A stretch of 40,232 nucleotides of DNA from an uncultured Acidobacteriota bacterium (GTDB lineage Bacteria > Acidobacteriota > Blastocatellia > RBC074): the NCBI GenBank assembly GCA_903862855.1, contig CAIOZW010000400.1, positions 1-40,232 on the forward strand, read 5' to 3'. Shown here piece by piece: positions 34,572 to 38,219 of this stretch. Positions within the stretch are counted from its first letter, which is position 1. Each line of letters begins with the position of its first letter. Below the pieces are notes generated by a model. It was given only the letters and a program-made list of their open reading frames with translations, had not been told where the DNA came from and did not search any database. The position numbers and the translations under genes are program-made.

Positions 34572-35510
34572 ATGGCTAAGCTGACTGAACTTAACTTCCT
34601 GAGACAGGGCAAGGTTCGTGACATCTACGAGATCGATGCCGAGCACCTGCTGATCGTCGCGACAGACCGCATCTCGGCCTTCGACTGCATTCTTCCCAAC
34701 GATATTCCGCGCAAGGGAGAGGTGCTGACCCGGATCTCCGACTTCTGGTTTGAAAAGATGGCAGATATCGTCTCCAACCATCTCGTGAGTACGAGCATCG
34801 ACCGACTTCCATCTGCAATTCTTGGACGCCTCTCCACCGACTCGCGCCGCTACCTCACAGGCCGTTCTATGATCGTTCGTCGTGCCGAGGTGATCCCCTT
34901 CGAATGTGTCGTCCGCGGGTACCTTGCCGGCTCAGGCTGGAAGGAGTACCAGCAGACAGGCGAAGTATGCGGGCATGCCCTTCCGGCCGGGCTGACCGAA
35001 TCGGCGCGCCTCCCCCGGCCCATCTTCACGCCGGCAACCAAGGCTGAGACCGGCCATGACATCAACGTCTCCGTCGCGACCATGGCCGGGAGCCTCGGTG
35101 AGGATCTGACCCGCGAGCTTGAACGAATCAGCCTCGCAATCTACGAGAAAGCCTCAACCTACTCCGCCTCCCGCGGGATCATCATTGCCGATACCAAGTT
35201 CGAATTCGGCCTTCGTGACGGTGCCATTACGCTCATCGATGAGGTGCTAACCCCCGACTCATCACGTTTCTGGCCAGCTGACCGCTATCTTCCCGGTCGT
35301 TCGCAGCCATCTTTCGACAAGCAGTTTGTCCGTGACTATCTGGAGACCCTCGACTGGGACAAACTGCCACCCGCCCCGTCCCTTCCTCACCATATCGTTA
35401 CGGCGACCAGTGACCGGTATATCGAGGCATTCCAACTGCTTACCGGCCGTGAACTCCCCGGCCTCGATGGTCAGGGTGACGGACTGCCAGCCAGCGGAGG
35501 TGCCAGATGA
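34572..35510 (+). CDS. purC: Phosphoribosylaminoimidazole-succinocarboxamide synthase (SAICAR synthetase)
   Basis: The 312-residue enzyme joins aspartate to CAIR with ATP in purine synthesis. Typical segments are LRQGKVRDIYEIDAEHLLIVATDRISAFD, VIPFECVVRGYLAGSGWKEY, ATKAETGHDINVS and IIIADTKFEFGL. The length is that of the longer PurC type rather than the about 240-residue type. There is no ribosome-binding site; a tandem repeat sits in its place. Its stop overlaps the start of a Fis-type HTH gene by four bases. Confidence 0.96.
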   Translation: MAKLTELNFLRQGKVRDIYEIDAEHLLIVATDRISAFDCILPNDIPRKGEVLTRISDFWFEKMADIVSNHLVSTSIDRLPSAILGRLSTDSRRYLTGRSMIVRRAEVIPFECVVRGYLAGSGWKEYQQTGEVCGHALPAGLTESARLPRPIFTPATKAETGHDINVSVATMAGSLGEDLTRELERISLAIYEKASTYSASRGIIIADTKFEFGLRDGAITLIDEVLTPDSSRFWPADRYLPGRSQPSFDKQFVRDYLETLDWDKLPPAPSLPHHIVTATSDRYIEAFQLLTGRELPGLDGQGDGLPASGGAR

Positions 35511-35743
35511 AGGCCGATCTCGATCGTCTCATCGACCAGATGATCTCCAGCGGCATCCTCTTTGACGAGGCACTCCGCGAGTTTGAGAAGCAGTTTATCC
35601 TGCGGGTCCTTGCGCACCATAACCATAATCTCTCCAGAGCAGCGGCTGAACTTGGTATTCACCGCAATACCCTTGCCCGGAGAATCGCCCTCTACGAGGC
35701 TGATCCCTCAAACGCCCGGACTTCACCTCCCAGCCGTCGCTGA
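35507..35743 (+). CDS. Small stand-alone Fis-type helix-turn-helix protein
   Basis: The 78-residue protein ends with the HTH found in Fis and at the C-terminus of NtrC-family activators: FEKQFILRVLAHHNHNLSRAAAELGIHRNTLARRI (about 26-60). The first 25 residues (DLDRLIDQMISSGILFDEAL) form a helix like the dimerisation segment of Fis. No AAA+ or receiver domain is attached. The ATG overlaps the purC stop (ATGA), so it is translated with the purine enzyme. Fis-like proteins bend DNA or regulate stable-RNA genes; coupling to purine synthesis could link it to growth rate, which is speculation. Confidence 0.85.
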   Translation: MKADLDRLIDQMISSGILFDEALREFEKQFILRVLAHHNHNLSRAAAELGIHRNTLARRIALYEADPSNARTSPPSRR

Positions 35744-35797: not shown

Positions 35798-35827
35798 TTG
35801 ACACCCCCCCTGGCCAGTTTTTATACT
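35798..35827 (+). promoter_or_regulatory. Sigma70-type promoter of groESL
   Basis: A perfect TTGACA at 35798-35803 is followed after 18 bases by TATACT at 35822-35827. The predicted start at about 35833-35835 falls within the CIRCE element, as in other HrcA-controlled promoters. Confidence 0.8.
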
Positions 35828-35853
35828 TGGCACTCTCGCAGTCTGAGTGCTAA
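35827..35853. promoter_or_regulatory. CIRCE operator (HrcA binding site)
   Basis: TTGGCACTC, nine bases, then GAGTGCTAA matches the CIRCE consensus TTAGCACTC-N9-GAGTGCTAA with a single change in the left arm. HrcA repressor binds this element and releases it on heat shock. It overlaps the promoter -10 and start site. hrcA is not in the window. Confidence 0.93.
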
Positions 35854-36209
35854 TAGTGCTCAGGTTGACTCTGGTCGACCAATGGAGTCTGAGCATGATA
35901 CGCTCAGCTTTATGGCGCGGTGCGTCATCGCGATGAGTCAAGAGGCTCTTGCGATTGCTGTCCAGTGGCTCACGGCGAGAGCGACCGGCAATCCGTGGTC
36001 AGGAAGGTCTGGAGTCATGAAATTATGGACGCCTGAGCCTGGGAAGACCATACGATGCCGGGTCACCTCTGTTGCGACCAGATGTGAGATCAGTCCGGGA
36101 GCTCGATTGTCTCGTGACTGATGCGCAATTGCGCAAACAAGTTCTGTTAGTGCACGTTTGTGTGCAAGTTTGATTGAATCATATAGAGAAACTGAAAGGA
36201 GCAAGATAA
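35854..36209 (+). other. Unusually long groES leader with several hairpins
   Basis: About 356 bases separate CIRCE from the groES ATG. The region has a stem at 35889-35907 (CTGAGC/GCTCAG), a perfect palindrome TCATCGCGATGA at 35925-35936, a perfect palindrome TGCGCAATTGCGCA at 36122-36135 and a stem at 36151-36166 (TGCAC/GTGCA). One plus-strand frame (35883-36121, 79 residues) is open from an ATG but has no ribosome-binding site or recognisable domain. A regulatory leader RNA or an uncharacterised small protein are both possible. Confidence 0.5.
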
Positions 36210-36524
36210 ATGGCAACATCGATTCGTCCCCTGAACGACCGGATCATCGTCAAGCGGTTGGAGGACCAGGAGCAGATGCGTGGAGGACTCTACATTCCGG
36301 ATACGGCGAAGGAGAAGCCGCAGGAGGGTGAGGTTCTGGCAGTTGGAAACGGCAAGCTGCTCGAGAACGGTACGCGGATCGCGATCGACCTCAAGGTTGG
36401 TGATCGGGTTCTTTTTGGCAAGTATGCCGGAACCGAGGTCAAGCTCGACGGTGAAGAGCTGCTCATTCTTCGCGAGGATGATGTTCTGGGAGTTGTTCAG
36501 TCTGCCGCCAAGGGCAAGAAGTAG
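36210..36524 (+). CDS. groES: Co-chaperonin GroES
   Basis: The 104-residue protein forms the heptameric lid of the GroEL chamber. Sequence marks are [14 protein letters not shown] at the N-terminus, the mobile loop [14 protein letters not shown], and [34 protein letters not shown] at the C-terminal half. It is a few residues longer than E. coli GroES because of a Lys-rich tail (AAKGKK). AAAGGAG precedes the ATG by eight bases. It is transcribed with groEL from the CIRCE-controlled promoter. In the 69-nt gap to groEL, CTTCCGGAAAATG at 36533-36545 recurs with one change at 36550-36562. Confidence 0.98.

Positions 36525-36563: not shown

Positions 36564-38219
<1,656 letters not shown>

Follow-up and report, generated by a model that had tools for sequence, protein, structure and literature searches.

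Double control of groESL by the repressors HrcA and HspR has been worked out in Helicobacter pylori and Campylobacter jejuni, and there is a hint of it in Mycobacterium tuberculosis; all statements on described systems, here and below, refer to excerpts of the cited papers. The operator of HspR, named HAIR, has the consensus CTTGAGT-N7-ACTCAAG (PMC7464140, PMC6102357). HspR of H. pylori protects 70–80 bp around one HAIR (PMC6102357). HspR and HrcA bind cooperatively in C. jejuni and independently of each other in H. pylori (PMC7464140). An approximately 9-fold increase of groES in a double hspR hrcA mutant of M. tuberculosis is cited in PMC5335608. Among the matches listed for the open-licence literature, no title on HspR control in Acidobacteria was found.

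We analyzed the groESL locus in the window, i.e., the whole stretch of DNA under study (40,232 nucleotides), which belongs to a 4.6 Mb draft genome consisting of 517 contigs. Comparison with related genomes indicates that groESL of this family is probably repressed twice: by HrcA at CIRCE and by HspR at an operator inside the leader. The features of the locus are as follows:

35798–35827, forward strand: sigma-70-like promoter of groESL, TTGACA-N18-TATACT, 11 of 12 consensus letters
35827–35853, forward strand: CIRCE, the HrcA operator, adjoining the -10 box and overlapping the expected start site
35854–36209, forward strand: expected transcribed leader, 356 nt after CIRCE, from an inferred start site
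35882–36121, forward strand: reading frame of 79 residues, judged non-coding by coding score, Pfam and homologue search
35888–35908, forward strand: HAIR-like dyad TCTGAGC-N7-GCTCAGC with the core TGAG-N9-CTCA, predicted HspR operator
35909–36193, forward strand: remainder of the leader, mostly sequence without detected relatives
36122–36135, forward strand: 14-nt perfect palindrome TGCGCAATTGCGCA, the only exact copy in the assembly
36194–36201, forward strand: Shine–Dalgarno sequence GAAAGGAG, invariant in all nine loci of the window family
36210–36524, forward strand: groES with ATG at 36210 (Pfam Cpn10, 117 bits)
36594–38219, forward strand: groEL (Pfam Cpn60_TCP1, 276 bits)

The gene order was a purC-like gene (recognized by eye), a Fis-like HTH gene, the promoter, CIRCE, the leader, groES, and groEL. 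The CIRCE of the window, TTGGCACTC-N9-GAGTGCTAA, had one mismatch to the consensus TTAGCACTC-N9-GAGTGCTAA and was the sole CIRCE of the assembly within 3 mismatches. TTGACA and TATA aligned across all nine loci of the window family, and their CIRCE elements had 0–4 mismatches. The original prediction of a clear promoter and CIRCE with groES more than 350 nt further on was confirmed by the leader length of 356 nt. A second promoter near groES, which had been named as an argument against it, did not appear: a simple scan for the sigma-70 type revealed none between CIRCE and groES. Perfect palindromes, which had been expected to be two, were present but numbered three at a length of at least 10 nt: 35872–35881 (10 nt), 35925–35936 (12 nt), and 36122–36135 (14 nt). 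The motif AGTCTGAG...GCTCAG occurred twice at a distance of 44–46 nt, across the end of CIRCE (35840–35866) and at the HAIR-like dyad (35886–35910). The small Fis-like HTH gene (35507–35743) was located directly upstream of the groESL promoter; such a gene was also found at most 700 nt before groES in three of the eight other family loci (L005, L009, L010).

A groES match was obtained in 56 genomes, and the 30 best loci were compared. Nine of them belonged to the window family and represented six genera; two of its 11 genomes (G005, G010) yielded no groES. CIRCE with at most 4 mismatches was found in 21 of the 30 loci, comprising all nine of the window family and twelve of other families. Its position relative to groES was −383 in the window, −222 in the other locus of the same genus, and −150 to −163 in the remaining seven family loci, which corresponds to post-CIRCE leaders of 123–356 nt; the leader of the window exceeds those of the seven loci outside its genus by about 220–233 nt. 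In the twelve loci of other families, CIRCE was located at −75 to −109. A set of 80 named groES loci, with starts chosen by a script and with the family loci L007 and L020 included again, contained 66 loci having CIRCE with at most 3 mismatches, 64 of them at 66–125 nt before the start, in agreement with the earlier expectation of about 100 bases between CIRCE and the first codon. The two exceptions were a member of the window family (159 nt) and a locus with an uncertain start (224 nt). Thus, long leaders are characteristic of the window family (Acidobacteriota, probably Blastocatellia), with the window as the most extreme case. Unconserved length or structure in relatives, named earlier as a refuting observation, applied to the leader as a whole but not to one dyad.

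This dyad, TGAG-N9-CTCA, was located 28–35 nt behind CIRCE in seven of the nine family leaders and four of the six genera. Genera g1, g2, g3, and g5 had it in each of their leaders (seven in total); it was absent from the single leaders of g4 (L011, genome G004) and g6 (L020, genome G007), though both of these genomes carry hspR; L011 had only a HAIR-like site of 10/14 elsewhere in the leader. The distance from the dyad to groES varied from 69 to 302 nt, while that to CIRCE was constant within the range given above. Among 3000 shuffled sets of nine leaders, in which any 4-nt inverted repeat with a spacer of 3–12 at similar positions of the first 90 nt was allowed, at most two genera shared such a repeat. 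Because shuffling ignores kinship, alignment columns were compared between genera: over 17 pairs, the eight core letters were 100% identical, the loop 34%, and the flanks 29%. With an invariant core against a near-random loop and flanks, descent alone is not a sufficient explanation.

The seven dyads matched the HAIR consensus at 13, 13, 13, 12, 11, 10, and 8 of 14 letters, the sister species having 11, the window 8, and the other five leaders 10–13. Among 108 groES upstream regions, four scored at least 12/14, all from the window family; outside it, the sole best score above 10 belonged to L023 (11), a locus without CIRCE. The exact pattern TTGAGY-N7-ACTCAA occurred at 33 places in the 11 family genomes versus 32 with the reversed control; this pattern thus gave no sign of a larger HAIR regulon. 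Inspection by eye of the reading frames at nine of these loci revealed no recognizable heat-shock gene behind the sites. A recurring subset, TTGAGTCxCCxCCACTCAA, apparently lay in coding sequence and may be an ABC-type motif.

Both repressors are represented in the family. The hrcA gene of the window genome (G000:C62:5135-5812; PF01628, 217 bits) has counterparts in all 11 family genomes. A MerR-family scan detected a gene similar to hspR in each of the nine family genomes that yielded groES. Two NCBIfam HspR models led in all nine proteins, unrelated MerR models reaching about 45–50 bits; scores for NF047375 were 95.4–99.1 bits, all under the curated cut-off of 105. In the window genome, hspR directly followed dnaJ. 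The order dnaK, small gene, dnaJ, hspR was assigned by position and motif in eight genomes; in the ninth, only a short stretch of contig precedes dnaJ. For the window genome, dnaK, hsp20, and hspR were confirmed by Pfam, as was hsp20 of a second genome. The location of hsp20 between dnaK and dnaJ was observed at L224 (2166-6310), with homologous loci L226-L232; no grpE gene was noticed in this operon.

All eight visible dnaK promoters carried CTTGACA-N7-ACTCAA(C/G) over the -35 box and spacer, with GTTGACA in one of them. These sites match HAIR at 11–12 of 14 letters and have the same right arm, ACTCAA(C/G), as the groES dyads; part of their left arm is dictated by the -35 box. A HAIR-like site is thus located at the promoter of the hspR-containing operon in 8/8 cases, a placement consistent with putative autoregulation.

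The dyad is expected to be transcribed. A hairpin close to the 5′ end of the message, acting as a stabilizer or a protein-binding stem, was considered instead of a DNA operator. As RNA, the window dyad was predicted to form a hairpin with a pair probability of 0.99 (outer helix 0.76), and it lies in the 100-nt piece of the leader with the strongest fold (35854–35953, z −2.97). Two of the departures of the window from HAIR are symmetric (T-A to C-G), and pairs changed on both sides numbered three among the seven dyads, a value reached by 42 of 500 shuffles. However, the four core pairs never varied, the three variable pairs were unpaired in 9 of 21 cells, and shuffles reached the covariation score (77/500) and the percentage paired (103/500). 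Covarying stems in relatives, which had been suggested as a check, are represented by a conserved dyad, but its variable pairs are without clear covariation. Variable stem positions that lack clear pairing fit letters read by a protein in DNA better than an RNA stem. Furthermore, the dyad resembles a known operator in its letters, and these recur in the untranscribed -35/-10 region of the dnaK promoters. The lack of clear covariation in these seven sequences, a small sample, together with the recurrence of the right arm at dnaK, favors a DNA operator, and we consider the hairpin an unlikely alternative to HspR binding.

Folding of the leader as a whole bears on another explanation, an RNA thermometer that covers the ribosome site of groES when it is cold; ROSE and fourU are known types of such elements. 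The post-CIRCE leader of the window folded below shuffled sequences (z −3.6 with 60 shuffles and −3.1 with 150 shuffles), and predicted pairing of the Shine–Dalgarno AAGGAG, 0.58 at 45 °C, was down to 0.37 at 65 °C. When the folded sequence was extended to cover CIRCE and the beginning of groES, z was −2.4; 47 stretches of 356 nt drawn at random from the window all failed to reach this value. The excess was mainly located in the best-folding piece named above; 35912–36180 alone gave z −2.2, and the opposite strand of the leader −2.4. Against a thermometer, pairing of AAGGAG was nearly constant between 20 °C (0.64) and 45 °C, and shuffled upstream sequence gave 0.52 ± 0.17 for the window. Across the nine family leaders, predicted Shine–Dalgarno pairing at 37 °C ranged from 0.17 to 0.87, without common melting or a pairing shared by relatives. 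The fold was not conserved either, z being below −2 only in the window and L011 (−2.8). An Rfam scan of the leader gave no family at threshold; relaxed limits gave one chance hit. A thermometer, as suggested in the original prediction, is very improbable on these computed values. The more general suggestion of a second heat-shock layer holds in that an extra layer is probable, but the evidence favors a DNA operator of HspR/HAIR-like type and not a post-transcriptional RNA element.

The leader had also been proposed to hide a small gene in a 79-residue frame at 35883–36121. The frame exists, with its start at 35882, and an ATG frame of 79 codons has a chance of only about 0.03 in a leader generated by a first-order Markov model. 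Nevertheless, it scored −0.08 bits per codon, lower than any of 155 genuine coding stretches of equal length, and a Pfam search of the frame gave no match. For the 122-codon frame containing it, a search of the 11 family genomes gave no credible homologue; the best foreign match (E 0.011) had internal stops. No ribosome site was seen by eye ahead of the 79-codon frame. Coding score, Pfam, homologues, and ribosome site being all negative, we regard a hidden gene as extremely improbable.

The operator predicted for the window itself requires caution. Its dyad is the weakest in the family: the core and spacing are kept, and the outer letters are lost. The best chance HAIR site in shuffled upstream DNA averages 8.4/14, so the 8/14 of the window is no better, and 369 places in the window score at least 8/14. 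Unremarkable by score, the window dyad rests on its position and symmetric core. It could be a decaying HAIR, with the extra leader of the window a product of neutral local growth. This explanation is compatible with double repression at the family level and denies it for the window species only. The groES leader of the sister species (L005, 1420-1450) holds a 13-nt tandem array of 2.4 copies, a possible route of leader growth. Except for one 30-nt match, taken as chance (E 8e-4), the leader had no match in 58 relatives, and no second copy of 35912–36170 was found in its own genome. Folding of the extension alone is only moderate (z −2.2), and from 35934 onward the z values of 100-nt pieces lay between −1.3 and +1.3. 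On the other hand, the core, spacing, and symmetry of the dyad are intact in the window. We consider neutral growth with a decaying operator a serious possibility, although we lean slightly against it. An origin of the extension from a mobile insert was rejected: no second genome copy was found beyond 30-bit scraps at E of at least 1. A search of the leader against plasmids and phages gave no match.

For double repression, we infer the start site, binding, repression, cooperation, and release by heat from the computed elements: CIRCE, hrcA, the hspR-like gene, and conserved HAIR-like dyads at two operons. HrcA, bound to CIRCE, would occlude the start site. The MerR-type protein HspR, encoded at the end of dnaK-hsp20-dnaJ-hspR, would bind the HAIR-like operator in the leader, centered roughly 58–65 bp behind the expected start site. 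Bound HspR might obstruct polymerase on its way out of the promoter or extend back over CIRCE, and heat or misfolded protein would release both repressors. The HAIR-like dyad lies about 51–58 bp behind the center of CIRCE, so the protection span and cooperativity of HspR described elsewhere could allow it to reach CIRCE or block elongation. An operator placed behind the start site would also account for the long leaders of the family.

Loci outside the window family showed other arrangements. Nine of the 30 groES loci had no CIRCE, and all nine genomes were without an hrcA match, while 19 of the 21 genomes with CIRCE had one; in G031 and G040, CIRCE was present without an hrcA match. The nine CIRCE-less loci belonged to families f5 (L012, L013, L023) and f7 (L014-L019). 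The three groESL promoters of f5 carried CTTGACA-N7-ACTCA over the -35 box, HAIR-like at 10–11 of 14 letters, where shuffled DNA gave 10–11 at best. The six promoters of f7 carried CTTGACA-N7-ACGCAGA over the -35 box, which is weakly HAIR-like. The motifs suggest that groESL of f5 and f7 may have switched to HspR-type control. A tentative extension, which we hold possible but doubtful, is that HspR in the window family acts as a downstream barrier trapping or stopping polymerase that has passed HrcA, and that the class shows three wirings of groESL: control by HrcA only, control by both repressors, and, in genomes lacking hrcA, a HAIR-like site within the core promoter. Double control in the window family, if confirmed, would give a testable series within one class, with rewiring of a universal heat-shock operon open to direct comparison.

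The groESL promoters of the window family share the layout of promoter and CIRCE with the CIRCE/HrcA promoters of other Acidobacteriota and further phyla, but in the latter CIRCE lies much closer to the start codon (64/66 loci, at the distances given above). The consensus reported for bifidobacteria, TTGAGysw-N6-CTCAA, has nine bases from TTGAG to CTCAA with Y first, as in the dyad of the family, and HAIR at the dnaK promoter is common to the bifidobacterial-type system and the window family; however, in the excerpt of PMC9004370, bifidobacterial groES and groEL have CIRCE without HAIR, while groESL of the window family has both. For groESL1 of M. tuberculosis, a role of both repressors is implied (PMC5335608), as we propose here. 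HspR alone at its own operon, with a site overlapping the -35/-10 region, is described for cbpA-hspR of H. pylori (PMC6032397), and the site at dnaK-hsp20-dnaJ-hspR in the window family resembles it. The closest likeness at groESL is to H. pylori and C. jejuni, where CIRCE at the core promoter is likewise combined with a HAIR-type operator (PMC6032397, PMC6102357, PMC7464140). These organisms belong to a different phylum, and in the excerpts their HspR sites at groES are upstream of the core promoter, that of H. pylori being centered 72 bp upstream of the start site (PMC6032397), whereas the site of the window family lies downstream of CIRCE. If confirmed, groESL of these uncultured Acidobacteriota would represent an independent case of double control, in which the HspR site has shifted to a position downstream of the start site.
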